Assembly: GCA_006503535.1 (NCBI GenBank)
Contig: QYRS01000002.1
Location: forward strand, 2,480,001-2,544,000
Length of the DNA stretch: 64,000 bases
Direction: 5' to 3'
Source of the DNA: Arthrinium phaeospermum
Taxonomy: Eukaryota > Ascomycota > Sordariomycetes > Amphisphaeriales > Apiosporaceae
Made by a program: the position numbers and the translations under genes. The notes beneath the pieces were generated by a model. It ran no database searches. It saw only the letters and a program-made list of their open reading frames with translations, and had not been told where the DNA came from. Positions 7,989-63,354 of the stretch are shown here, in pieces; position 1 is the stretch's first letter, and each line of letters opens with the position of its first letter.

Positions 7989-8858
7989 ATGTCCGACCAG
8001 AACGGTAATCGCAACTGTGAGTGAACACTCTGGTCGCCCCCCTTACCCTCATGGGAAGAGGACTCACATGGTTGACAATGACAACAAATTACTTACTCAC
8101 TGATAGGCACCAACTGTGAGATGTGTCCCCTGCTGTAGGCTGGTTGCACATTGCAGTCATCGTGCCATCCGTTACACTTGCACTTGTGACTACTTCAACC
8201 TACTGCATGTCCTGACTATAGCTCCCTATCTAGGCAAAAACTGCACGAACTGTGAGAACTGCAGAGACTGTACGTCCCTTGGCGAGATATCCACTGCCGT
8301 TCGTGACATGCTGACGAGTCGCTTTCTAGGTACCGGTGAGTTCTGCCTTTGGGGATAAGGGGTACCTTCGTCTCCCGACATACAGCACTGGCATATCATC
8401 AGAGGCCGATCGTACTTGGTCCAGCTCTTCTGGTCAGCCGGTGTCTAGGAAGTGAAGTTGGCTGGCTGACATTGTACGTGTGGAGGATGCGACGACTGCT
8501 CGAACTGTAACAAGTGCAAAGGCTGCAAAGACGTAAGAGGGTGTATTCTCGTTTCCCTACTCTCCTCCCGGCCGTTTGCTGACTTGATATGACCACCGTC
8601 CGACAGTGCTCCAACTGCCATAGCTGCACCGATTGCAACAACTGTTCCAACTGCAGTGACTGCAAAGACTGCGACAACTGCTCGAACGTAAGTCGATGAC
8701 AAATCGGAACAGGTGTTTTCTGACTAGCACTCCCCTGAGTTTCGATCTTGGAAAGGGACTTACAGAATTCGCGATAGTGCACCGACTGCTCCGGGCTCAG
8801 CAACGCGAGCAACCAGCATGGTGTCCACATCGACAGAATTCCTGGCGAACTGAAGTAA
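7989..8858 (+). CDS. Cys-X-X tandem repeat protein, seven exons (novel)
   Basis: Exons by splice signals and phase: 7989-8016, 8107-8115, 8234-8269, 8330-8335, 8486-8532, 8607-8687, 8778-8858. The 288 nt encode 95 residues. Cysteine occupies every third residue from 10 to 73 (22 triplets), typically C-[S/T/K/N]-[N/D]; position three is N or D in 17 of 22. The N-terminus (MSDQNGNRN) has no signal peptide, and a 22-residue Cys-free tail ends in IPGELK. Donors are GTGAGT, GTGAGA, GTACGT, GTGAGT, GTAAGA and GTAAGT; all six acceptors end in AG. Introns 1-3 all split a Cys codon after its T, and the triplet register survives all six junctions, which chance would not give. Exons of 9 and 6 nt are unusual for fungi. 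The role is unknown; thiolate metal binding (metallothionein-like) or a structural ladder are guesses. A further GTAAGA at 8855 could extend the tail. Confidence 0.8.
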
Positions 8859-32463: not shown

Positions 32464-34048
32464 CTACATGGTCCTGATTGATTTCACCTTGATCTGCAAG
32501 GGGATTTTGTGCCACACCAGCCACGTTTTCTGCCTCGCCATCCACTGATCGTCCAATAGTTCGATATCAAAATTCCATAGCAAGCGGGCCAAGACCAGCC
32601 GCATCTCAGCATAAGCCATACTGTGCGCGCCCGTTAGCAAAAACAAAAACAAAAATTGATCTGACCGTCTACGTTTGGTTGAAAACTTACTTAACCCCGA
32701 TGCAATTTCGAGGGCCGTACGAGAACGGCTGCATGGCGGCTCGATTGTCCTTTGCGAATTCCGCGCCTTGCGAGAGCGGCAGCCATCGCTCGGGGATGAA
32801 GGATCTGGCATCCTTGAAGTTATGCTCCATGCGACCGGCTGAGAATTGATGGACTCCTACGGCGACTCCGCCGGGGACCCATTGACCCTCAATCTCCTCG
32901 CCCTTTCCCGGCACGAACCGCGGAAAAGTACTGGGGCTTGGCGGGTACAGGCGCAAACCCTCTTCGATGACGGCTTTCAAGTAGCTCAACCGACTCGTGG
33001 ACTCGAGAGTGATATCCGCCTCGGATGTGAAAGCGGAACGGACCTCGTCGCATAGATTCTTGTACTTATCCGGGTTTCTGCCTAGGAAATACGTGATTCC
33101 TGCCAGAGCGGCCGAGGAGGTACCGCTACCGGCAACAATGAAAGAGGACGCCATCATGACCAGCTCTCTGTTCGTCAGGGTCTCCGTCTTGTTCTGCAAG
33201 AGGTAGCTGATGAAGTCCTTGCGGTCCTCCTTCTGCTGGAGCCTCTTCTGCACCTTGGCGGACGTCATGGCCACGTGTTTCTGCCGCGCCGCCATCAGCG
33301 ACGTCGGCGTGAAGTACTTCGCCCACCGGTCGAGGCCGTAGTAGATGAGAACCTGGTACCAGACGATCGACTTGGTGCGCGCGCCGAGGACCTGCAGCCA
33401 CGGCTGGTCCACGTTGTCCAGGCACCCCATAGCCTGCCCAAAGGCCAGATCGGACATGACGTCGAACGCAAACAGGCTGTACCACCGCTGCATATCCTGC
33501 GGCCCGCTGCCCGCATCCCGGCAGCACCGTCGCAGCTGCTCCATCAGCTTCCCCGTGTACAGCTGCAGGCAGTCCTCCTGCTCGCGCAGGGCGCGCTCGG
33601 AAAAGGCCGGGGCGACGGCGCGCCGGAGCCGCGCGTGCTTGTCGTGGGGCGCGCTGATGATGCCGTCGGCGGCGGTGGCGCGGATGTTGGGCCCCGCGAT
33701 GGCGCGGCCGTCGAGGCACTTGACGAACTCGTCGGCACCGCGCCGGCCGTAGATCTTCTTCCAGGCCTCGCCTCCGCCGCCCGTGTACGACAGCTCGTCG
33801 GGCGCGATGCGCACTACCGGCCCGTACCGCTCATGAAGGGCCAACAAGGACCACGCGAGCTCGCCGCGCAGGCTGGTGATGATCCAGGGGAGCCGCGAGG
33901 CCGCCCAGAGCTTGGGGCCCGGGTAGGCGCGCAAGGGGTGCAGGAAGATGTTGTAGAGGGCGCGGCAGAGGAGGTAGAGAGTCAGCAAGGCCAGAGACCC
34001 TACTATGAGCTGGGACGCCGATAAGGCGGACAAGTCGCTGAACAGCAT
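32464..34048 (-). CDS. cytochrome P450 (CYP60/CYP65-like microsomal monooxygenase), first paralogue
   Basis: Exons 32691-34048 and 32464-32620 encode 504 residues; the intron has a GTAAGT donor. The N-terminal membrane anchor LIVGSLALLTLYLL is followed by the Pro-rich hinge HPLRAYPGPKLW. Other P450 motifs are ExxR in EEGLR, PERW and the heme loop FSYGPRNCIG with its Cys ligand. Members of this broad group (averantin hydroxylase, isotrichodermin C-15 hydroxylase) oxidise fungal metabolites at the ER. In the I-helix the motif reads AGSGTS: the acidic residue usually before the conserved Thr is Gly, which may alter oxygen activation. The gene at 53.2-54.9 kb is a close paralogue with an intron at the same heme-loop codon and phase. 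I chose ATG 34048 because it immediately precedes the anchor; an in-frame ATG at 34126 would add 26 residues. Confidence 0.88.
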
Positions 34049-34126
34049 TGCGGTGTAGTAGTGTCCCGTGTGTACTCTGCCTTGAACGACCACACCACTC
34101 AACAAACTTGATGGGATAACCGACAC

Positions 34127-39403: not shown

Positions 39404-42400
39404 TCAATCCTCCTTGTTCAGCAAGGCGCTCTTCCGCGCCAAGTCCCCAGCCAACTGCCGCATCGGGATGTTGGCCATCAGGTCGAACACCGACACCTCG
39501 ACCGCCACCTCGCGCGCCACCCAGTTCCTGACCTCGACGGCGACCAGACTGTCGACACCGTAGGCGCTGAGCGGCCGGGCGGCGTCGATGTCGGTCTCGG
39601 GCATCATCATCAGCTTGGCCAGTCGCTGAACCATGGCCGCCGTAATCAGATCGATGGAGTCCTCATCGACACGTCCACAGCGCGAGAGCTCCTCGCGCAG
39701 CGAGATGGTCGCCGAACCGCCAGCCGAGGCGCCTGCCGCGAGATTGCGCAGGGCCGCGAACCGACCGTCCTCGATCCAGTACCAGGCGTCATCGTGCTCG
39801 TTGTAGGGGAGCCCACACATAACCTGGGCCGGGTGGGCGTCGGAGCCCTCGACGGCCGTCGACAAGAGGCCGTGCAAGTCCGAGTTGCGCATGACCTTGA
39901 GACCCATGGCCTTGACGTGGTCGACGTACTCATCGTGCTCGGCGACGAAACCGACACTGAGCAAGTAGCCGATATCGATGGTCATGGCACGCAGACCCTG
40001 GCTACGGCGGTAGCTTGCGAAGTAGTCCTGGAAGATGTTGCCAGCGCCGTAGTTGCCCTGTCCGCGATGACCCATGACTCCGGCCAACGAACTGAGCATC
40101 ACGAAGAAATCGAGATCGCGAGGGAGAAGCTCGTGAAGGTTCCAGGTCCCGTGGACCTTGGGGCCGACAGTGGTACGAACATGATCAGCCGTCATCTTGT
40201 CGAAAAGAGTGTCGTGCAAGACCATGGCACCTGTCACGCAGCCGCGAATAGGGGGAAGATGCTGGATCTGGTCAAGGACAGACTGAAGCGCGGCCTTGTC
40301 CCCAACATTGCAATCAAAGGCATACGTCTTGGTCTCGTACGTCTTCTCAAGGTCAGCGGCATAGGCTTTGTTATCCTCGCTGCTGGCTGCCGATCGAGAA
40401 AGAAGCACGATGTGCTTGGCGCCCTTCTCTGCCAACCAGCGAGCGATCTCGCGACAGATACCGCCCAGACCAGCAACCACGTAAGTAGCATCAGCCGTGA
40501 TTCCGACCTTGGGCATACGAGGCACGGCGAGGACCATGTCGGCGTCGTCGACGCTTATGACGACCTTACCCATATGCTTTCCAGTTTGCATGTAGCGGAA
40601 CGCCTTCTCAACTTCGGACATGGTGAATTTTTGTATCGGTTGGACGGGCTTGACCGCACCAGCATGGATCAACTTGGCTGTTTGTTGCCAGAGCTGTACT
40701 GCTCGTTTGGTCGGTTTGTCTTCAAATGATAAAAGATTGACGCCGATGTAGCTCTTGTTATCCAAGAAAGGCTTCATATCCAAGCCTGTGTTGGCGAAGA
40801 GGTCGGCTTTACCGATCTCCAGGAAGCGACCGAATTCGGCCAAGCAGTGCCACGAAAGACGCAGGGCCTCTCCGGCAAGAGAATTCAGCACGACATCAAC
40901 ACCTTCTCCACTTGTGGCGCGCATAACACCCTTATAAAAGCTGCTGATGTCTCTGCTGCTGAATATGTGGTCTTCGGGGATTCCATATTGGTCGATCAGG
41001 AGCTGCTTCTTCTCCTCGGGACCAACAGTGGCAAAGATCTCTGCTCCTATGCTCTGAGCGATCTGAATGGCCGCTTGGCCCACACCTCCAGCAGCTGCGT
41101 GAATGAGCACCTTCTCTTCCTTAGCCAGATGACCGGCCGTGACGAGAGCATAGTAAGCAGTGAGGAAGATGAGGGGCATGGAGGCAGCCTCTTCGAAGTC
41201 CATCCCCTCGGGGATGGCAATCGCGCCCTTGGCAGGAAAGCGCACGAAAGTAGCAAAAGCATCGCAGGAAGCCGTCATCACCTTGTCGCCAGGCTTTAGG
41301 TCCTTGACAGCGGATCCAACGCGGGTAACAACACCCGACACATCAACACCCAGTTTGTACTCTGCAAGGTTGCCCAGCGCGACGAGCACATCCTTGAAGT
41401 TGAGACCAACAGCCTTAACCTGGATCTCGATCCAATCCTCTGGCATAGGCTCGTAGTACAGCTCGTCCTCGATCCATCGGAAGGTGTCGAGCAAACCAGG
41501 GGTCTTGATGGTCAGCTTGAGAGGTCGGCCGCAACCGGTGAACGAGGTAGGCTCAGGGTCACCCTTGGCCTCGTACTTGCGGAGGGATGAGTCCACATTG
41601 GGCACCCGTTCAACACGCGGGACGTAGACGCAGCGGCCACGCGCAGCAAATTCGCCGTCAGGGGTTTCACCGCGGCTGTGCTCCAGCGCCACTCTGAGTA
41701 CGGCATCGGATGCCTGTTCCACATCGATGGAGCTTGCGGGCTCCAGATCGAGGGTGGCAAGAAGGACACCGGCGTCCTCGTTGCGGATGGCTCGGGAAAG
41801 ACCGACCATGAGGGACTTGAGGGGCTCGTTGGTATCCATGGCAGCTCCGCCCGTGATCCACAGAGTACCGGCTGATCCCAGTACGACGTCGCGCAGCTTG
41901 TCCCAGTTATCATCCGTAAGCTCAGCAAGCATTGGGGACTCCCACTCGGCCAGACAGATGCAGTATTTACCGCTCACGGCGTCTTTCGTGACCTGATTCC
42001 AGCTGATGGAGTCCACAGTCTTGTCCGCCTTCTTGATGGTCTCAGCGATAGCAGCCCCAAGCTTGTCAGACGCAGGAGTGTCGGCGCCAATGACCAGGAA
42101 CTGACTTGCAGTCTTGGAGGCTGTGTCGAGAGGCTTGGTGGATATGATCAGAGAAACGGGCTCCTTGGAGTTCTCACGGTCGCCACGAACATCCATATCG
42201 ACACCAGAGAATCCAGCCTTGACCAGGGCCGTGTGCCACTCCGGCACATCGAGCAAGGGACCGCCGAATCGACCGTCTGCCTCACCGAGCCACCAACCTG
42301 GCAGAGGTCCCATGATGAAACCACTGAAGATGCGCTTGATCGTCACCTCCGACAGAACGAGTCTGCCACCTGGCTTCAGCAACAACTTGCAGTGTTCCAG

Positions 42401-45400
42401 GGTCTCCTGGATGCTCTTTGTGGCGTGCAACACATTGGCGCATACAATGAGATCATAGCTTTCAGGGGCGAACCCCTGTTCTAAAGGCGAATTTTCCACA
42501 TTACATGTACCGAACTCCATGATTGATGAATCGGTGTTAAATCTCTCTGCAGCCTTGGCAAGGAAACCAGGGGAGATATCCGAGAAGAAATACTTGGCAG
42601 CTTTGGAGGACCCATCGGGGTTGCGGAGACGCTCAAGGACGTGGTAAGTGGTACCACCGGTTCCTGTTCTTGTAATTAGTTTATTTCTTTCCAATAATAA
42701 CCGGTCAATTTCAAGAGGGAACGCAGTTGTTCTCCGGAATAGGCGTTGTCTATCCCCCTCGAGGTCCTGTATTGGGGTGTGGGATAAACGCCGGGATAAG
42801 GATGGAATAAACACTGGATAAACTTACCAGCGCCGATTTCCAGAATCTTGACACCAGGAGACTTATCAGCAATGAGCCCGACATACTCCGCAACATTCGT
42901 ATTGAACGAAGTCCCGAACGCGCCCCTGTAGAAGGTATACAGCAGGTCCCCTTCCGTCATCACCTGAAGCGGCTCAACCTCGCGCATGAAGATCTTGGGC
43001 AGATTCTCTCCGATCCGGTCCACCATCTGCACGGTAATGTCGCCACTGGGCGAGTGCACGATGGCGTCGCGGCACCGCTCGAGCTCCGCCTGCACCTCGG
43101 CAGGGTCCTCGGCCAGCGGCGGGAAGTCCTTGATGGTGTCGTGCATCCACTCCACGTACGACTTCCAGAACCCATCTTGGGGGACAAAGTCCCTACCCTC
43201 GCCCTTGAACCAGTCGAGGCAGCGGTAGATGTGGTACAGGCAGACGTACTCCAGCTTGTCGAGCACGGTCTCGTCGTCTTTGCTCTTCAGCGTGCGGCTG
43301 TAGACAATCTCCTTGATCTGGTTGGGTTGCAGAAGATCGACGTCCTCGTGCCAGTTCTGGCCGAAGCAGGATGCCCGGGATTCCTGGGTGACTGCGGTGC
43401 TGTCACCTCCACCACCTATCGAGGCAAGGCCAACACCCTCCATGATAATGAGTGGTTCATCGTCGTTCTCGCATACATTGATCGCAGAAGTCCACGTCGT
43501 ATAACTGGTCTTCTTGGCGGTGCAGTGGCCTTGCAGCTTCGTGCTGGGGGTGGTTGGCAACTTGGATGAGATGAAGACGCGGTCGAAGAAGAAAGGTACC
43601 ACCGCTTCAGAGAGCGACTCTTCTTCACCGGTGATGCAGGGGAACAGGAGATGGAGTATCGAATCCAGAGTGGCCGGATGCACGACGAACGGGTACTCGA
43701 ACTGACAAGGCATGACGCTCTTGGTATCGGGAATGCTGATGATACCATAGCTCGATTCCGGTCCCGCGAACAGATCCGTCATATTTCGGAAGGTAGGGCC
43801 GTACACCATGCCGATAGTCTCGACTTGATCGTAGAGGAAGCTTCGGGCGGGCCTTTGGCACTTCTCCTTGGCGTCCAGGAGAGCCTGCTTCTTGGCCGCC
43901 GACTCCAGCTCCAGCTCCTTCTGCATGGCCGGGGAGAGGGACGACTTGTATGTCAGAGAGATCAGACCGCGGGCGTGCACAGTCCATTCCCTCGTCTCTT
44001 CGGACCAAGACGAGACGGAGAACTCGTTCAACGAGGACGAGGGCCCCGCCTTGGTGCCGGTGCGGCGGGGGTGGAGCTGAACCTGCACCTCAACACCCTT
44101 CTCCGTGTCGGGAACGCGGAGTGCGGTCGTGATCGCGACGTCGCGGAGCTCGTACCCGTAGATCTCCTCGTTGATGTCCGCGATCTCCTTGGCCGCCTCG
44201 ACGGCCATGATGACGATACCGACACCGGGGTAAATAATGTCGCCTTGAACCTTGTGCTCTCGGATCCACGGGTTTTCGTTGCAGCGGAGGAAGTTGCGCC
44301 ACGTCGGGTCAGGCACTCCTGGTATCCGGTATCCAAGAAGGTCGGTACGAGCCTTGGGGCGCTGTCGGTAGTCTCTGCTCAAGTAGGACTCATCCCAGAA
44401 GCTGCGGCTGGCACTGTGGTCCCAGCTATAGGGTGGTAGGTCCACCAACATCTTCACGTCCTCGGGCGCCTCGTTCACCAGGTTCAAGTCAATCTGGCAT
44501 CCCTTGGTCCAGAGCTCGCCGGCCGCCTGAAGAGCCGTGTCGACACCATTGACCTTTCGTCTCAGAACACTGGCGTACGCCAAGTCGACAAAGCGGTCCT
44601 CGGCCTTGAAAATGTCAAGTAGATAGCCCCTTAGGGCGGAGTGGGGTCCAAGCTCGACGAAGACGCTGGCGAAAGCGGTACGGTCATGGCTGCGGGTCTT
44701 GCCCTGCGTGTGGTGTAGCAGAGCCCGTGTGGCGGCGGTGAAGTTCACTGGCGAGACCAGGTTGTCAATCCAGTACGAAGGCTTCATGTCTTCCGCGGTG
44801 ATCAGTTTCCCGGTGACCGAAGAGAACATGGGCAATCCGGTCTCGGGGGCCTCGTGAGGAATGCCCGCCAAAGCCTTCTCATACTGGGTCCGTGCCGCCT
44901 CCATGTGGAAGGAGTGATAGGCAACGTCCATGGGTAGCTTGGTGCACAGTACTTCATCCTTCTTGAGCGCGTCATACAGTTCGTCTATGGCGGGCTTGTC
45001 GCCAGAGACTGTGCAAGATCTAGGGCTGTTCATGCAAGCGATGACTGCTCTGCCCTGTGTCAGGGCGCCGAGTCGCTGCTCCATGGTCTCGGCCGACGCG
45101 TTGATCGCGATCATGCCGCCGTTCTTGGAGACGGTTGAAGAAACTTGACCCCTAAGCCAAGCAATCTTGACGGCCGCCTCGTGGGAGATGAATCCGGCCG
45201 TATAAGCGGCGGCGATCTCGCCACTGGAATGTCCCACAACAGCGACGGGCTGAACACCCCATGATCGCAACAGCTGGACGAGAGCGACTTGCAGGGCGGT
45301 ACAGGCCGGCTGGCTATACTCGGTCAGGCGAAGTTTGCAGTCGGTTTCAGACCGGTTGAGCTCCTCGTCCAGATTCCAGGGGCAACCGAGAGATGCGAGC

Positions 45401-47456
45401 ACTTCCTGGGAGTATCTCATGCTTTCCCGGAATGCCTTGTACACAGAAAGTCCCTGCCCCATCGCCCACCACTGGGCGCCCTGTCCAGTAAAGGCAAAGG
45501 CAATCTTGGGTACGGCGGAGTTGGAGGATCGAACGACAGCAGGGACATTCTCCAGGGCCTTTCGGAGAGTCTCATTGCTGGATGCAATGGCGAAGCTCTT
45601 CCATGGAAGGACAGTACGCTTGGAGCTCAGAGTGTAAGCCAAGTTGTCGAGTAAATCTGCTGTGGACTTGGACTCGGGTTTGGCGGAAAGGTAAGATTGG
45701 AGGCTTTCGACTTGGCGAGCGACACCATCGGCGTCGTTCGAAGCAAGCGCAAAGACTCTAGATTTGGTGTCCTCTTTCGAAGTGCCATTGGTGCCGTTGG
45801 AGTGACCATTGGCTCCGTTGGTGACCAGTCTGGGAGTTGTGAAATGGCGTCCCCTCTGGCCTGTTCGCACCAAATATGAGGCGGCGTCCTCAAGAATGAC
45901 GTGGGCATTGGCACCTCCAAAGCCAAAAGAGTTGATACTGGCGCGGCGAGGACCTTGGTGAGGCCATGCCATGGTGTCAAGCGGGATCTTGACATTGTCT
46001 GGAAGGGAAATCTGCTCGTTTAACTTCTCAAACCAGAGATTTCGGGGGATTAAGCCTCGCTCAACAATGAGTGAAGCTTTGATGACTCCTGCAACTCCAG
46101 CAGCACCTTCGAGATGACCAATGTTGGTTTTGACTGAGCCAACATAGAGATCTGTGGTTCTATTCGCACCGATCGTGTTGAGAATAGCCTTTGCTTCAAG
46201 CGGATCGCCGGCTTGCGTTCCTGTGCCGTGGGCCTCCACATACGCCGTAGTCGAAGGATCGACACCCGCTTGCGCATATGCCGTCCGGATGAGCTCTTGC
46301 TGAGCCTCGCTGTTTGGTAACGAAATGCCAGGGGTCCAGCCGTCCTCATTCGCCGCCGTAGCAAGGACGACGGAGCGGATAGTGTCACCGTCTCGGAGAG
46401 CTGCCTTCAACGGCTTCAGGATCAGGACACCGATACCTTCGCCCCGTGCGAAGCCATCGGCGTTGGCGTCCCACATCTTGGACTTGCCCTCAGGGGAAAG
46501 AATCTTGGCGGCGCCAAGAAGAATGGACATGTCGGGACCAAACATCAGGTTGGCGCCAGCAATGACCGACATCTCGGCCTCTCCTGTCCGGATGCTTTGG
46601 CAGCCGAGATGGAAGGCTGTCAGGCTGGATGAACATGCTGTGTCAATGGTCATACTCGGCCCTTTCAGGTCGTAAAACCAGGACAGTCGGTTCGACGCCA
46701 GCGAAGCCGAGGTTCCGGTGGCGTGGTAGATAGATGGGCCCTCATTGTCGCGAGCTTGCAACGAGGGAAAATCGGCTGTGAAAGTGCCGATATAGCAGGA
46801 CGTTTTTGTTCCGGCAATATCCTGTAATCGCAAACCTGCATTCTCAAATCCTTCGTATGTTGTTTCCAGAAGCATTCGGTGCGTGGGGTCCTGTTTGAGT
46901 TGAGTTAGCGCTTTCCGTTCTTGCCAAGGTAGCTTCCAATTACGCCATTGGCCGAGCGTTTGATGAGTGCCATTATGACACCCCAGTAAATCTACTGGCA
47001 TAACCGCTCTTTGCTGCAATCGATATGATGACATTGCCAAGGTAATTGGTCATATTCATTTGAAACGTATTAACATTGAAAAGTTCAAGACATGTTACTC
47101 ACCATGGCCTTTGCCTCCTTGGGCGTCACCGAGAAAAAGGGGGCATCAAACACTTTGAAGTCTTGATTCAGAAAATGGGCGTGTCTTTGCTGGATGGACC
47201 CGAGCCGGTCACCGTTCGGGTGATAAAACCCATCTACATCATATCTCTCTTTGGGAATCTCGCCTCGGGCTGATCGGCCCTCGAGAAGCATATTCCAAAA
47301 CTTCTCCGGGTCAGAGCCATCGCCGGGCGCTCTGAGAGCAATACCAATGACGGCTATGGGCTCCGACTGAGGCAAGGCCTCGGCCTGGTCGTGTATTAAA
47401 GGCATGTTATGTTGTACAAATATCTGATAGGCCTGATGAAGAGTGAGAGAGGCCAA
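39404..47456 (-). CDS. highly reducing type I polyketide synthase (KS-AT-DH-cMT-ER-KR-ACP)
   Basis: Exons 47103-47456, 42828-46890 and 39404-42663 encode 2558 residues; the introns are 212 and 164 bp. Domains by motif: KS (about 31-455) with Cys204 in DTACSSS, His339 in EAHGTGT and His377 in NIGHLEG; AT (580-900) with GHSSG at Ser673; DH (965-1270) with His997 in [10 protein letters not shown] and Asp1194; C-methyltransferase with LEIGAGTGG at 1468; ER with the NADPH loop [10 protein letters not shown] near 1997; KR near 2200 with AGLGGICRE and a later NYGAGN; ACP with VDSL near 2510. It would load malonyl-CoA and extend, methylate and fully or variably reduce a chain. There is no thioesterase or reductase at the end, so release needs another enzyme. 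The KR glycine loop is slightly atypical (Cys for the last Gly). Met18 is an alternative start. The product cannot be predicted. Confidence 0.96.
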
Positions 47457-48379: not shown

Positions 48380-50053
48380 CTATTCTACCAGGGGTTGATA
48401 CCACCGGAATACATTATTGGGATCATATCGTTTCTTGAGCCCTCTCAGCTTCTCCAGCCTCCACGGCTCTCCGTAGAGGGCCTCCGGGGGGTCTCTCATC
48501 GTTGAAGTCGTGTTCCCGTAGTTTACGTATTGATGAAGCTCGCCGTAGCCAGAGGTTTCTATAAACCTCCTCTTCCAGCCGTCGAGGTGCTTCTCGAAAT
48601 CTTCCCGATATTCCAGCTTCATGGGTGTTGCCATCAACATTCTACGTGGGCCATGTCAGCTTCGAGCAAACGAATTCCCGACACGGATCGTAGACTTACA
48701 GGAAGTGATCGGATGAAGACCGCCACGGGAAGGCGGTGGCATCATCAGGAATCTCCCGGACCCGGTGGTGCGGGAGACATTCGAACATGGCGCCAAATGT
48801 CCCCTTGCCAGCGAACTCGATGTTATTGGCCTTCACGCTTTCGAAGAATTCCCTGGTGGTCTGGAGGTCAAACTTCTTGACGCACGCGGCGCTCATCATC
48901 TTGTAAGGCGCGACAGTCCAGACTTCGGGCATGCTCAGGAACTTGTTATATCCCTTGTAAGTCGTCCAGGGCAGCTCAGGCCACTCAACCGCTACCTTAC
49001 CCGAGTGGATGGCGGGCTTGATCGCCTCGAACCTGGCAATCCAAGGGTCTGCTTCGGCTTCGGTACCGGACCATACGAGGTTTACCAGGATCATATGCTT
49101 CATCCGTTCTAAATCAGTTGCGTTATTTTAGGGAGGACTGTGGACTGGTCTTACCTGTTTGCCCTCGGTGCTCTTTCTCATCCACAAGACGAATATAGCC
49201 AGTTCCTTGGGCATGGACTCCGTAGCCTCGTTCAAGGTACGAAACACGTCGTCACACTGCTCGATCTCGTACTCAAGATCCCATGTGTAGTGGATGCCGC
49301 GATTGGATTGCTTGTGCACCCGGAAAGTTGCCTCAATAGCAATGCCAAAGTTGTGGCCAGCCCCGCGCAGTGCCCAAAACAGATCCGCGTTCTCCTTTTC
49401 TGAGGCTGTGACGATAGATCCGTCCGCGAGAACCAGCTTGCAGGAAACCATATTGTCGTGCAAGAAGCCATACTTGCCTTGGAGGCGGCCAAGTCCAGCA
49501 CCCAAGGAGACTCCCATAACACCAGTCGTCGGGCATGATCCCACATCTTGACGCAGAATGATCAGATAGGTTTGGATTTCGCGAACCAACATTCTCACTT
49601 ACTGACTTCCATGCCCATCTTGTGTATAAACTTGACGAAGTCGTCCGTTATGACTCCGCCGCCCACAGTTACCGTCTGGTCCCCTTGATTGAAGCTCAGG
49701 CTATTCAGAGTCCTCATATCGATCAAGATGCCATTCTGCAGATGCCTCATGGTCGACGTCACGGCATGATGACCGGCACGCGGGGAAAACGGTATGTTTT
49801 TCCCTGTGGCATACTTGACGGTCTCCACAACGTCCTCGATACAGCCCGGCTGGACCACGGCAGTGTAAGTCTAGCACCGCCAGTGTTAGCGGATATCTTC
49901 ATGTCCAGCATGAGCCGGGAGTGAAAGGCAATTGTGTACCGGACGTTCATACTCGGTGAATCTCAGATTCGATGCACCGAAGCCCTCAGAGCCTGGATAG
50001 TGCAACTTCCCGCTTGGCGAAAGGTGAGACGCGAGCTCGTGGTGGTCATCCAT
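48380..50053 (-). CDS. FAD-linked oxidoreductase (berberine bridge enzyme-like)
   Basis: Five exons, 49940-50053, 49603-49870, 49155-49546, 48700-49097 and 48380-48641, encode 477 residues with consistent phases; introns are 56-69 bp. The FAD-binding half runs from TYTAVVQPGC through PRAGHHAV to GAGHNFGI. The His in RAGHH and the Cys in GSCPTTGVMG sit where related enzymes attach FAD by two covalent bonds. The C-terminal BBE segment has YVNYGN and YDPNNVF. No signal peptide is seen, so it is probably cytosolic. Such enzymes oxidise alcohols, close rings or desaturate in fungal pathways. It lies 0.9 kb upstream of the synthase on the same strand. The third intron could end at 49104, but only the acceptor at 49098 keeps the frame. 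Confidence 0.9.
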
Positions 50054-50906: not shown

Positions 50907-52564
50907 TCACTTGGAAAGTCTGAGACGACACAGGACGCCCTCATGCCTGTCGATCGAACTCCCCGGCGCGCACGTAATGCCGAAGTTGCTGTAATCTCTG
51001 GAGGTGTTGTCCAGGTCCAGGCCCTCGATGGCGTCAAACTCCTGGAGCATGCGGACGACCACGAACCCGGCCTCCGTCAGCGCAAACTGCTGCCCTATGC
51101 AGATGCGCGGCCCGCCGTTGAAGGGCACGTAGTGGAAGGTACCCGGCCTGCGCTTCTCCCACCGCTCTGGAATGAAGTGTTCCGCGTCAGGACCCCAAAG
51201 GTCGCATCTCTTATGCAAAACATGTGTCGAGAAGTTCACTTCCGTACCGGCGGGCACGAATACGGGCTGTGTCCCGTCTGGGCCGCCCCCGGTCGGAAGG
51301 GTCGTATCTCTCTTGGCACACCGACTGTTCAGGGGCACGACCGAGTGGCGTCGGAGCGTTTCGTTCAGCACATGTTGCAAATAAGTACAATTTTTCAGCT
51401 TCTCGAACGTGACGCTGTCAGCGGCTTCGTTGCCACCAGTAGCTTCACCGAAATGCTGGATAACAATCTGGCGCAGTTTAGCAAACACTCGCGGGTTTCG
51501 GATCAGCGAGTAAAAGACCCAGCCCGTCAATGCGGCGGTGGTGTCGGTTCCGGCAGCGAGAAGGCCCAGAACCTGCTCGCGGACCTCGTCGCGATCTGCA
51601 CACCGGGCGCGCAGGGTGTCGAGGAAATCGTATTTGGCCCGGTTCTCCCCTGAGCGGACAGTCGCGTCCGCTTTGTCCATGGCGTCGTTGGTGAATTGGT
51701 GCATAACGTCAGCGATGCGTCGTAGCTCTTTGTTTCCATAGATCCAGTAGAGCCCCTGAGAGTCAGACGCATGCGCAGCAGGGGGACCATCTGTTCCAAG
51801 GCCCAGTTCAGATCTTCTTTCTTCTCGCCGCGCAGCCTGGCCTCCAGCGAGTTTGCACTCTGGCCGAGGAAGACCTCGGTGGCGGAGTCGAGCGTGAAAC
51901 GTGGCAGGAGCGCCGCGAGACTGACGGGGGCTGTCCAAGTCCGCCCGTCACTGTCCTGTGAGGTCGACCCGACTCCTTCGGACGATTCCAGAAGGCACCG
52001 CATCATGCTCTGGAAGCGGCCTTCGAGCAGGCGCACGTTGGACACGTTTTCCCTGGTGAAAAGGGGCCGCATGACCTCGCGGGCGCTGTGCCACGCCGGA
52101 CCGTCGACCGCAAAGATGCTGCGGCCGAGGAACAGCTTGAGATTGGTCGTGCGAACATCGCCCAGCTTGAAGTCGTCAAACTGCGTGGCCAAGATGGCTT
52201 GGATGTTGCGTGGCTCGGCCGTGATGAAGTTGGAGCTGCCAAGGACGTTCATGCGCCACGTATAGCGGCCCATCGCCGCAAACCGGTCTGTAACATACTC
52301 GGGCATCCTTTGGTCTTTGTCGGCCATCAACCCATTTCGAACGATGTCGAGGCCCAATGGCCATTTCCTTGGTTCTGTTGGGACGCTGCCGCAGCCAAGT
52401 TGGCGAGCTTTTAACCAGTGACGCCAGGGACGAACAACATAACTGTTGATGAACCTCAAAAGGACCAAGGCTGCTCCTAGGCTGACGAGCAACCTGATGC
52501 GGCTGAAGTTTGAGCTCAGGTAGAGTATGGCTCCCTTTGCTTGGTCGGGGAGTTCATGCGCCAT
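50907..52564 (-). CDS. cytochrome P450, CYP52-like, with apparent frameshift
   Basis: Two overlapping frames carry one P450. The first (52564 to about 51757) has the membrane anchor LLVSLGAALVLLRFI, then VRPWRHWLKARQLGCG and WHSAREVMRPLFTRENV, typical of the CYP52 alkane and fatty-acid hydroxylase group. The second (about 51752 to 50907) has the I-helix AAGTDTTAAL, ExxR in ETLRR, IPERWE and the heme loop PFNGGPRICIG. The frame changes by one base around 51750-51770. A GT...AG pair there would give only a 32-bp intron, and no normal intron fits. A run of four C at 51753-51756 is the likely site of a one-base length change. The protein would be about 550 residues if intact. It could be a broken gene or a sequencing error; all catalytic motifs are preserved. 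A terminal hydroxylation or carboxylation role in the cluster is inference. Confidence 0.82.
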
Positions 52565-53206: not shown

Positions 53207-54936
53207 ATGTCTGATATGATCAAATACCTCGAAAGAGAGGATGTGAAGGCAATTGTCAGTCACTTGCCTCCCATCACTTTCGGCAACGTCTTCAAGGGGC
53301 TTGGTATCGCTGTAAGTTATCTCTTCCCCTCGGATGAATATTGCTGGAGACTGAAAGTGTATGGTAGATTTTAGCGCACCTTGTCTTGGTCAGGGTTGTC
53401 TACAACTTGTATTTTCACCCGTTGCGCAATTTTCCCGGGCCTCGACTTTGGGCCATTTCGCGGGTACCGTGGCACTACACCAACCTCAAAGGCAGAATCA
53501 CCTGGCGCATCCGGGAACTCCATGACCAGTATGGACCAGTGGTGCGCATTGCCCCTGATGAGCTGTCGTACACCACGTCTACGGCTTGGAAGAAGATCTA
53601 TGGTCAACGTAGTCCGGAGTTCCCAAAGGCTCTCGACGGACGAGGCATCGCCCCTACGAGCATCGATGGGCGCCCCTCGTTGATGACGGAAACGCAAGAA
53701 AACCATCTGAGGCTGCGCAAGGCCATCAACCCGGCGTTCTCGGAGCGTGCCTTGAGAGAACAGGAACATTACCTCCAGGCCCATTCCACCAAACTGGTCA
53801 AAGTCCTGTCAGAGAAGTCTAAACAAGGACCCGTGGACATGACAACGTGGTACAATCTTGTTGCCTTTGACATCGTATCAGGTGGGTAGAATCTCACTGA
53901 GAAGCGGATTCCCTTTTATCGCAAGTGAAACTGATACCTGTCGCAGACCTCGCATTTGGTGAGCCAGCCGGTTTCCTTGATAATGCAGACCAACCATGGA
54001 TCCAAGTCATTCTCAACCGTGCCACTGCGATTAAGTTTTACCAGTTGGCAGTCTGGTATGGTGTTTTCCCTCTACTGAGTCTGTTTACCCCAAGGTATGT
54101 GACGGAAAGCCGAAAAGCGCACATAAAAAACACCACACAAAAGCTTGAACGTCGCATGAACGCGAAAAGTCCAGGTAAGGACTTCATGTCCTTCATTCTG
54201 GAGAACGACGACCCCGCGGTGGAGAAGCTGTCCAAGATCGAACTGGTTATGCTGTCGAGCAACTTCATCGTGGCCGGAAGCGGAACATCCGCGGGAGGCA
54301 TGTCCGGCCTCACATATCTCTTACTGCGCAACCCGGACAAGCTCGAGAAGTTGAAGAAGGAGATCCGCGACGCTTTCTCGACATTAGAGGATATAACCAT
54401 GGTCGGTACAGCAAAGTGCAAATACCTCAACGCCTGCCTGGAAGAAGGCATGCGCATGTACCCGCCCACCCCGGGCTCTTTGCCGCGCATAGTCCCCGGC
54501 AAAGGCCAGGAGATTGATGGTAAATGGGTGAAGGGTGGTATGGCCGTCGCCGTCAACCAGTTCAGCGCCGGGACGTCAGAGCTCAACTTCAAGCGCGCTC
54601 GCGAATTTCACCCAGAGCGGTATCTGGAACTACCTCCAGGGTCCGAGTTCGCCAACGACGACAAAGCTGCGGCTCAGCCTTTCTCTATGGGCCAGCGCGT
54701 GTGTATCGGAAGATCGTAAGTTCTTATCCGTTTGACATTTGTTTTGTGGCTTGAGTAACTGACTGTGGACGTTCAGGATGGCATACGCCGAAATGCGCCT
54801 CACAATGGCAAAGATCATGTTTTCATTTGACCTCGAGCTTGCGGAGCCTGATTTGGATTGGTGGAATCTGCAAGGGACTTATCTCGTCTGGGAGAAGATC
54901 CCGTTGATGATCCAGCTACATCCTAGGTTCAAGTAA
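53207..54936 (+). CDS. cytochrome P450 (CYP60/CYP65-like), second paralogue
   Basis: Exons 53207-53311, 53368-53881, 53947-54715 and 54777-54936 encode 515 residues. The anchor ILAHLVLVRVVY is followed by FHPLRNFPGPRLW. Motifs are ExxR in EEGMR, FHPERY and the heme loop FSMGQRVCIG. The I-helix reads AGSGTS, with Gly in place of the usual acid, as in the paralogue at 32.5 kb. The two share several near-identical segments (YGPVVRIAPDELSYT, NPAFSERALREQE, MAYAEMRL) and a phase-2 intron at the same heme-loop codon; this copy has two more introns. It is probably an ER monooxygenase that oxidises the polyketide product at a position different from its paralogue. A GTG 15 bp upstream is in frame, but the ATG at 53207 is preferred. 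Confidence 0.9.
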
Positions 54937-55739: not shown

Positions 55740-56700
55740 ATGGCCTGTACTATGGACACTTCGTTGGGGCAAGACGTCCGCAAGCCCATGCAGGTGATGT
55801 CCCTTGGAATGACGAGAACAGGTGATCAAACATCCGCATAATTTTAAGTGTAGCCACACACTGACATGTGTATAAGGGTCCGCCTCCATCACACAAGCGC
55901 TCACTATACTGGGCTATCGAAACGTGCACCATGGGATCCAGGCCATAAGCAACCCAAATGACTGGACCGTGTTCTCTAACGCAAGCGACGCCTTCTTTGA
56001 GACTCTCCCGTCCTATCAGGGGCAGCCTTTCGGGCGGTTCGACTGGGACAAGATATTTGGCCAGTGTGAAGCGGTCACTGATATGGGCTCCTTCTTCGCT
56101 CTCCCGCTCATCGAGTCATACCCGGACGCGAAGATCGTCCTGGTAGAGCGTGACGTTGACAGCTGGTATGAGAGTATGGAGGAGGCGATCTTCAGCACGA
56201 CCTGGGGCTGGCGGGCCAACTTGATTATCGACGTCTTTGGTCGTTTCATGAACTTGACGGGTGGATTGACAATCAGGAAGATCATGCTCGGCTACTACGA
56301 GGCGCGCAACGTCACCGAGATGAGAGCCAAGGCGAAAGAGCGGTACCGCAGGCACTACGCCGAGATCCGAGCTGCGGTTCCCGAGGAACGACTTCTGAAC
56401 TATGACCTCAAGCAAGGCTGGGAGCCTTTGTGCGAGTTTCTGGGCAAGCCCGTACCAGATATGCCGTTCCCACAGGTCAACAAAAGGAAAGAGCATGTGG
56501 CAAGAGTCAGAGCCAAGCAAGACATGTTCCTCAAGGCGATGTGTAAGAAGACACTTCGAGCTCTCGTGCCGTTGATCATGAGCTCTGGGGCACTAGGCCT
56601 CGCAGTCTGGAGCTGGAAAAACCAGGAAGCAGTTGCTGACAGCTTCAAGTGGGCGAGGTCATTGATCGAGTCAATCGCTACCACGCGTCATATTTCCTAG
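55740..56700 (+). CDS. fungal sulfotransferase-like P-loop protein with C-terminal membrane segment
   Basis: Exons 55740-55821 and 55877-56700 encode 301 residues; the intron is 55 bp. The N-terminal strand and loop MSLGMTRTGSAS correspond to the nucleotide-binding loop of the fungal Sulfotransfer_4 type family (usual form GxGRTGTxS). The segment FDWDKIFGQCEAVTDMGSFF and the IVLVERDVDSWYESM strand are also typical. By family it would bind PAPS and transfer sulfate, but activity is proven for few fungal members and many are misnamed epimerases. The end has a hydrophobic helix, LVPLIMSSGALGLAVW, suggesting membrane anchoring. It is the last gene before the housekeeping block and is co-directional with the P450 at 53.2 kb, so it may act late on the product. 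Confidence 0.8.
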
Positions 56701-60692: not shown

Positions 60693-63354
60693 ATGAGTTC
60701 ACGAACAACCTCGTTTTCCGCAGCTCCACTCACCCGCCGGCCGTCCTCTCTCACCAGTCGCCTTTCCTTTGCTGTCTCAACCGCCGAGCGCGGCGAAGGC
60801 CACGATGCGCCCGCAGCGCAGCAGATAGACGAAGAGATCGCTGAAATCAAGCGGTACGAGGTATGTGTTGTCGCCCTTTGCGGGCCCACGCGCCGATCGT
60901 CCCAAGCTGCTCCGCAATCTTGCTAACGTGCATTTGCCTCCAGGACTTTACCACGATCGGTATGCGCCATGAAGCTCGCTCGCGAGGGGATACCACGATA
61001 CTGACAAGCCATCGACAGACTGGGTGCAAGATGCCGCACGCGAACAACTGCGACGGAAAGCGAAACGGCGCAAGAATGCCGGCCTCTTCGACAACGGCCA
61101 GGTGACCTGGCGACATCGAGTGGCCGAATCCTACGATGCGGCTCAGGGATGGATCGTCGTAACCCTCATTGGTGCCGCCATCGGTTTCAATGCGGCGTTC
61201 CTCAATATCATTACAGAGTGGCTATCCGATATCAAGACGGGCTACTGCACGACGGGCTTCTACCTAAACGAGAACTTTTGCTGCTGGGGCGAAGACAATG
61301 GTTGCGCCGACTGGCACCCTTGGACCGGCTTCGGGCCCGCCAACTATGTGATCTATATTCTCTTTGGCACGTTCTTCGCCTGCCTCTCGGCGACTCTCGT
61401 CAAGTCGTTTGCGCCCTACGCTGCCGGATCAGGTATATCCGAGATCAAATGCATCATCGCCGGATTCGTCATGAAGGGGTTTCTCGGCCTCTGGACGCTC
61501 ATTATCAAGTCGATTGCGCTTCCCCTCGCCATTGGATCGGGTCTTTCGGTTGGAAAGGAAGGTCCCAGCGTACACTATGCCGTTTGCACGGGCAATGTCA
61601 TCTCTAGGCTCTTCGAGAAGTATGCGCGCAATGCCTCCAAGACACGCGAGATCCTCAGCGCCTGCGCAGCTGCCGGTGTGGCTGTTGCTTTTGGAAGTCC
61701 GATTGGCGGCGTGCTCTTCTCTTTGGAAGAGATGTCAAACTACTTCCCGCTTAAAACGCTGTGGAGGAGTTACTTCTGTGCTCTAGTTGCCACCGCTGTT
61801 TTGGCCGCCATGAACCCTTTCCGAACCGGCCAACTTGTCATGTTTCAGGTCCACTATGATCGATCATGGCACTTTTTTGAGGTATTCTTCTACATCATAC
61901 TTGGCGTTTTTGGAGGCTTGTATGGCGCTTTTGTTATGAAGTGGAATCTGCGAGTCCAGGCGTTCCGGAAGAAGTACTTGACCAAATACGCCGTTCTGGA
62001 AGCGACATTGTTGGCGGCGGGTACCGCCATCATTTGCTATCCCAACGTATTCTTGCGCATCGACATGACGGAAAGCATGGAGATTCTGTTTTTGGAATGT
62101 GAGGGCGCAGAGGATTACCAGGGGCTCTGTGAAAACGACAGGCGCTGGAGTAATATCCTTTCTCTGCTACTTGCGACGGTCATCCGAATATTCCTGGTCA
62201 TCATATCCTATGGCTGTAAAGTCCCAGCGGGTATCTTCGTCCCATCTATGGCCATTGGTGCTTCCTTCGGGCGAACTATTGGAATAATAGTTCAGGCGCT
62301 TCACGACTCTTACCCGCAAAGCGTCTTCTTTGCCTCTTGCCTACCCGATCTACCTTGCATTACCCCTGGAACATATGCATTTCTAGGCGCCGCAGCTGCT
62401 CTCAGCGGCATCATGCACATCACCGTCTCTGTTGTCGTCATCATGTTCGAACTCACAGGGGCGCTTGATTATATTCTGCCCACCATGATTGTGGTTGGCG
62501 TTACCAAAGCCGTGTCTGAAATCTTCGGTAAAGGGGGTATCGCGGACCGTATGATCTGGTTTAGTGGATTTCCCTTCCTCGACAACAAAGAAGACCACAA
62601 CTTCGGGGTACCCGTCCAATCGGTCATGACCAATGACATTGTCACCATTCCAATCCAAGGCATGACGCTGCAATCAGTGGAAGATCTGCTCTCGCAGCCC
62701 AAGTACCAAGGTTTCCCTATAGTAGAGGATGTAAACACGAGGATACTTGTAGGCTACATCGGACGTACAGAACTCCGCTACGCCATCGACCGGCTCCGGC
62801 GCGAGCGCCAGATCACCATCAGCCCGCAGGCCAAGTGCTCCTTCTCGCCCTCCAACGTCGCGGGCGCCATCCCCGTGACGCCGACCGTGACGGTGTCCAA
62901 CACGGACTACAACATCTCCTCGTCGGCGTCGACCATCGACTTCAGCCGCTACGTGGACCCCACACCAGTCATGGTGCACCCGCGCCTGCCGCTCGAGACG
63001 GTCATGGACATGTTCCGCAAGATCGGTCCGCGCGTCATTCTGATCGAGTACCACGGCCGCCTGGCCGGCTTGGTCACGGTCAAGGACTGCCTGAAATACC
63101 AGTTCAAGGTCGAGGCGGCCGAGAACCCGCACGCGAGCCACGACGTCCAGAAGGGCAACGAGGTGCTCTGGGGCTGGATCCAGACCGCGGGGTTCTGGGT
63201 CTCGGGCAAGCTGACCAGCGCCAGCGGCGGCCGCATCCGGCTCGGTAGTACGGAGATCCAGGGCGCGGGTCGGCCGCATGCGGGCAGAGGGGGCATCATG
63301 GACGGAGATGAAGACCTGGGCGATGAGGGCGGCGTGGAGTTGGAGAATAGGTAA
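60693..63354 (+). CDS. ClC-type chloride/proton exchanger (Gef1-like)
   Basis: Exons 60693-60860, 60944-60959 and 61019-63354 encode 839 residues; exon 2 is only 16 nt but is fixed by phase. About ten membrane helices start near residue 105. Family signatures are GSGISE near 198 (usually GSGIPE), GKEGPSVH near 240 with the gating Glu, and GVLFSLEE, whose Glu matches the proton glutamate of exchangers. Two CBS domains follow the membrane part (about 593-655 and 706-760), with GYIGRTEL and GLVTVKDCL. By analogy with yeast Gef1 it would balance charge and chloride in Golgi or endosomal compartments. The N-terminal 100 residues are Ser/Arg-rich and cytosolic. The C-terminus is Gly-rich and acidic. 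Confidence 0.93.

Follow-up and report, generated by a model that had tools for sequence, protein, structure and literature searches.

A gene whose predicted product carries cysteine at every third residue was recognized in a 64,000-nucleotide stretch of contig QYRS01000002.1 of the ascomycete Arthrinium phaeospermum (positions 2,480,001 to 2,544,000; the whole stretch is referred to here as the window). With a probability of about 0.6, the product is a small, probably intracellular protein that forms a short right-handed beta-helical rod, with the thiols in its core and its outward faces serving as a scaffold. Among solved structures, the one closest to its relatives in both sequence and fold is 1EZG, an antifreeze protein (AFP) of the beetle Tenebrio molitor whose beta-helix has 12 residues per coil.

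The gene and its cysteine array

Both strands were read and the splicing was computed. Seven exons within positions 7989-8858 of the plus strand (Table 1) splice together to give a single open frame with 95 codons and a stop, which reproduces exactly the exon model of the first-pass annotation, made earlier from the sequence alone. The six introns are all of the GT..AG type and 60-150 bases long, and their donors (GTGAGT, GTGAGA, GTACGT, GTGAGT, GTAAGA and GTAAGT for introns 1 to 6) were judged good. Four acceptors are TAG, one is CAG and one, at the end of intron 4, is an unusual GAG. Introns 2, 3, 4 and 5 each contain a branch-like CTGAC, 14-23 bases upstream of the acceptor, and introns 1 and 6 have looser branch-like sites only (ACTTAC at 10 and 14 bases). 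The start encoded in exon 1, of the form DxNGNxNC, is similar in proteins of Diaporthe citri (P0002) and D. australafricana (P0012), and the cap encoded in exon 7 is conserved in P0001, P0002, P0003, P0010-P0012 and P0015.

All 22 cysteines, at positions 10, 13 and so on to 73, fall in one register with an unbroken period of three, as had been annotated. The third triplet position is Asn in ten, Asp in seven, Gly in three, and Lys and Ser in one triplet each, which agrees with the earlier count of 17 Asn or Asp in 22. When the residues of the 66-residue stretch are shuffled, the exact probability that all 22 cysteines share one register is 1.6e-17, a value that is not the full significance, because the exons had been chosen by looking for the pattern. 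At a minimum score of 30, Tandem Repeats Finder detected neither a microsatellite nor a simple repeat across the exons; its hits were a period of 36 bases within exon 6, with 2.2 copies at 75% matches, and a weak period of 9 bases. A period test on the DNA of the whole array was not significant (p 0.24). CSN recurs as triplets 8, 12, 16 and 20. At E <= 1 the product matches no Pfam family and so no metallothionein family either, Rfam gave no match over the whole window at the gathering level, and NCBIfam none for five proteins. No targeting sequence is visible by eye.

Evidence for a proposed beta-helix with 12 residues per coil

Structure models were made of one fungal and one phage relative, and they show beta-bridges at every third residue. 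Foldseek returned nothing at E <= 0.001. 1EZG ranked closest, and further beta-helices with short coils (tubulin cofactor C, cyclase-associated protein and phage tailspikes) had lower Z values than 1EZG against the fungal model; these others are not known to be cysteine-cored. The first-pass annotation had proposed a helix that completes a turn every three residues and would place all thiols on one face and carboxylate or amide groups on another. The cysteines do line up along one side of the chain, but such a helix is not supported by the two models and the nearest structure, and the thiols are most likely aligned inside a predicted beta-helix of the beetle antifreeze type; Asn and Asp are probably better read as turn residues than as ligands.

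The outward residues of the window protein repeat every four triplets, that is, once per predicted coil, with z 1.85 (p 0.055, the best of nine lags tried). The same repeat is stronger in P0010, P0044, P0038 and P0014 (z 3.9, 3.8, 4.8 and 3.3). In P0001, P0003, P0011 and P0026 it is present at z 2.0, 1.3, 2.6 and 1.4, with another lag slightly higher, and in P0019 and P0042 no four-triplet signal was found. Among the 51 proteins with runs of at least 14, a lag of 12 residues was the best in 15, more than any other of the eight lags, with a mean z of only 0.75.

From the computed properties, namely the consistent gene model, the conservation, the period of three, the period of twelve in several relatives and the match in fold between a relative and 1EZG, we infer the following architecture. 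One coil of 12 residues would comprise four C-x-[N/D/G] triplets, and about five and a half such coils would be stacked between an N-terminal cap, NGNxNC, and a C-terminal cap, CSGLxNxSNxxGVH. In each triplet the Cys would point into a narrow core and the middle residue outward, and the Asn, Asp or Gly that follows would bend the chain ahead of the next Cys. Asn, Asp and Gly are preferred in tight turns, which suits their place in front of each Cys. The main role of the stacked thiols would be to fill the core as small side chains, and cross-links across the coil, between residues i and i+6 as in the beetle protein, would be probable on oxidation. The result would be a rigid rod or scaffold that binds by its outward faces.

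Substitutions at the cysteine positions and alternative explanations

Ten hand-cut segments of eight ascomycete-type proteins contain 120 register positions, of which 32 are occupied by Ser (16), Leu (8), Met (5) or Val (3) in place of Cys. Adding the main array of P0127 together with P0074, P0153 and P0044 brings the count to 42 of 197 (Ser 19, Leu 9, Met 5, Val 4, Gly 2, and Glu, Asn and Thr one each); the segments had been picked by eye so as to remain in register, and a further upstream segment of P0127, in which seven of eight triplet heads are not Cys, is out of register and was left out of this tally. The register continues into the C-terminal cap, where its positions are mostly Leu, Ala, Gln or Glu, and Val. 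Exchanges of this kind would be easier to reconcile with a small residue buried in the core than with a metal ligand. The metal-thiolate ladder that had been suggested for the array is weakened, because Ser, Leu, Met or Val takes the place of Cys in relatives. A parity rule, with Leu, Met or Val only at even triplets and Ser only at odd ones, was tried and rejected: it holds within each segment of P0012, P0015, P0103, P0077 and P0026, and in P0002 in the first segment and, if counted from its own start, in the second, but it fails in the Macrophomina protein P0075 and in P0091, the latter having two Ser, both at even triplets.

The exon model has several uncertain points. Micro-exons 2 (9 bases) and 4 (6 bases) and the GAG acceptor of intron 4 are its weak spots, and intron 3 (8270-8329, 60 bases) is open in frame. 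Skipping exon 4 leads to a stop codon, whereas skipping exon 2 leaves 21 cysteines in register; if intron 3 were retained, 20 additional residues would separate two Cys triplets and break the run. In P0012, itself a predicted protein, the sixth triplet is likewise CTG followed by Cys (Cys-Thr-Gly-Cys at the weakest junction), and for this reason exons 3, 4 and 5 are probably joined as read and the predicted spliced form is favoured. Retention of intron 3 might give a second isoform. The micro-exons and the GAG acceptor, in a model read from the sequence, would suit a chance or repeat-derived reading assembled from plausible splice sites, or a decayed gene, and the other period-three Cys frames of this genome are simple repeats. 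However, predicted proteins of Diaporthe have the same CTG at triplet 6 and the same caps, the caps occur also in Friedmanniomyces, donors and branch-like sites are present and no simple repeat runs across the exons, all of which makes the lack of a genuine gene very improbable.

The product might otherwise be a new kind of metallothionein, in which the thiols of an extended chain or beta-helix bind Cu(I), Zn or Cd for metal buffering. Its 22 cysteines in 95 residues would suit this, and a reducing compartment is plausible, as a strongly hydrophobic, secretion-like N terminus occurs in only four of 169 proteins (a crude scale applied to the first 40 residues); but with no Pfam match, with Ser, Leu, Met and Val at register positions and with models of relatives that form a regular beta fold without metal, we regard metal buffering as doubtful. 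Also improbable is a rod that is obligatorily locked and stabilized by i/i+6 disulfides, as in the beetle AFP, and that may reside where conditions are oxidising, for example in the mitochondrial intermembrane space. According to an excerpt of PMC8038014, 1EZG itself is a disulfide rod and beetle AFPs fold only once their cysteines are oxidised, and the long N termini of P0001, P0003, P0010 and P0011 look mitochondrial by eye; on the other hand, the window protein has no such visible sequence, the phage relatives would presumably act in a reducing cytosol, and four Cys per coil exceed the need of one cross-coil disulfide. About equally improbable is a nanotube with a thiol-lined bore, in which the four stacked Cys of each coil would hold a linear chain of soft-metal ions, for example Cu(I), or relay thiol/disulfide exchange along the core. 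Such a tube would work in mitochondria or under the reducing conditions of the cytosol and be used alike by phages, fungi and insects, and the Leu and Ser replacements in Diaporthe would mark lineages that kept the rod and lost the wire. Ice binding would be suggested by the coil length and core register that the predicted coil would share with the Tenebrio protein, but it is unlikely, indeed scarcely credible, because the window protein has no TxT (nor any TCT) and nothing that resembles a flat Thr face.

Relatives in fungi, phages and a moth

Three protein searches at E <= 0.01 retained 9 of 22, 67 of 737 and 222 of 2273 candidates (120 of these 222 being listed), and the relative set comprises 168 distinct proteins (denoted by P numbers), 61 of which were inspected as sequence. 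The nearest named relatives are from Diaporthe (Sordariomycetes), and other named ascomycete relatives are from the Dothideomycetes Friedmanniomyces, Lophiotrema, Macrophomina and Viridothelium; many unnamed proteins resemble those of phages. Period-three cysteines are found in related proteins as well, and the first-pass annotation, which their absence would have refuted, passes this check. In 24 of 72 relatives the unbroken run is at least 22, the longest being 38, so the window protein is a member of a widespread class and not its extreme. The array had been described as denser and more regular than known metallothioneins; it is not uniquely regular.

The profile of phrog_15341, a family of phage proteins of unknown function, matches residues 9-82 of the window product (E 2e-12) and all nine proteins tested, namely this product and eight relatives. 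Among IMG/VR contigs, one search gave eight loci, with the array open reading frame (ORF) in seven, and another gave one locus. The phage-type relatives on these contigs (L015-L023) have an N-terminal NNNxWD-like part joined to the C-x-[N/D] array, and several also have a C-terminal part with a CGCF-like motif. Their neighbours vary (portal, minor head, DNA methyltransferase, head protease and replication genes), and of 20 neighbouring ORFs scanned nine had no match; the function is not revealed by the neighbours. No relative was found in two scans of bacterial genome contigs or in a tblastn search of a phage-record collection with P0004, and a precomputed PF27784 label on P0078 was not reproduced on rescanning. 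The window gene is not a phage gene, as it sits in a fungal chromosome and has introns. Because the repeat itself carries the match, common descent of the fungal and phage arrays is unproven, and they may instead have converged.

P0014, from the moth Loxostege sticticalis, has two similar Cys arrays, each of which starts with DSNVNCHNCHNC and ends with a GHNRNCVT cap. P0074 has an MGC start. Two unnamed proteins, P0038 and P0040, bear a precomputed label PF04564 (U-box), and PPxY, a ligand of WW domains, occurs in four of the 169 proteins, all fungal-type (P0026, P0074, P0091 and P0103); a shared link to ubiquitin ligases is possible. Lineage-specific additions such as the MGC start, the U-box label, PPxY and the mitochondrial-looking N termini of P0001, P0003, P0010 and P0011, none of which is present in the window protein, suggest that the module has been reused in different places.

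Comparison with known proteins

The repeat of the Tenebrio protein (1EZG, 1L1I) and its beetle relatives is TCTxSxNCxxAx. It would share with the predicted coil of the window protein the inward residues at a period of three, the 12 residues per coil, the core Cys and the Asn before Cys. In contrast to its C/S/C/A core, the window array has Cys at all four inward positions (22 of 22 array positions), and it lacks both the TxT ice face and a recognizable signal peptide. The window gene is fungal and multi-exon, whereas an excerpt of PMC8038014 describes the gene of the Tenebrio protein as intronless and states that the 12-residue sequence of the beetles was not identified in AFPs derived from fish, plants, fungi or bacteria. 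The phrog_15341 proteins have the same C-x-[N/D] array but carry extra N- and C-terminal parts. Metallothioneins are likewise small and very Cys-rich; they differ in that the present Cys are replaceable by aliphatic residues, no Pfam family matches, and a regular beta fold is predicted for the relatives.

Searches of open-access full texts listed no paper on a period-three, all-Cys beta-helix. A coil apparently like that of the beetle AFPs, with Cys at all inward positions, seems to occur in fungi, phages, two proteins with the U-box label and a moth. It poses the question of how four core thiols per coil are kept inside a cell, be it free, in disulfides or bound to metal, and it suggests a nearly minimal C-x-N code for beta-helical rods.

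Copy number and neighbouring genes

The source genome comprises 48.4 Mb in 19 contigs. Five other places with period-three Cys (on C7, C16, C4, C13 and C5) were rejected as paralogues; they are simple-repeat frames (QCR, HCL or SPC repeats) or the opposite strand of an EHxEH-rich frame, and so the gene looks single-copy, in a six-frame search that may miss split exons. The short tandem repeats at C7:102268, C16:384285, C4:3488436 and C13:702089, whose six-frame translations mimic period-three Cys, are a warning for searches by pattern only.

Table 1. Exons of the cysteine-array gene and other features of the window
Feature	Position	Strand	Remarks
Exon 1	7989-8016	+	start codon, N-terminal cap NGNRN, first base of Cys10
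Exon 2	8107-8115	+	9-base micro-exon, triplet 1; weakest evidence, frame kept if omitted
Exon 3	8234-8269	+	36 bases, triplets 2-5
Exon 4	8330-8335	+	6-base micro-exon; Cys25-Thr and first base of next codon
Exon 5	8486-8532	+	triplets 7-11; GAG acceptor upstream, GCTGAC 15 bases before intron end
Exon 6	8607-8687	+	triplets 12-20; contains 36-base internal repeat
Exon 7	8778-8858	+	triplets 21-22, C-terminal cap CSGLSNASNQHGVH, tail, stop TAA
Likely biosynthetic gene cluster	32687-56700
P450 genes (at least three)	32687-34126; 50907-52564; 53386-54719
Highly reducing polyketide synthase frames	39404-47040	minus
FAD-binding frame	49128-49598
Sulfotransferase-domain frame	55924-56700
CLC-type chloride channel with CBS domain	61024-63354		776 residues, single open frame

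The window also encodes a fungal transcription factor domain, and the polyketide synthase, P450 and sulfotransferase frames likely belong to a biosynthetic gene cluster. Some 24 kb separate the cysteine-array gene from the nearest P450 and polyketide synthase frames. A CLC-type chloride channel is encoded near the end of the window.
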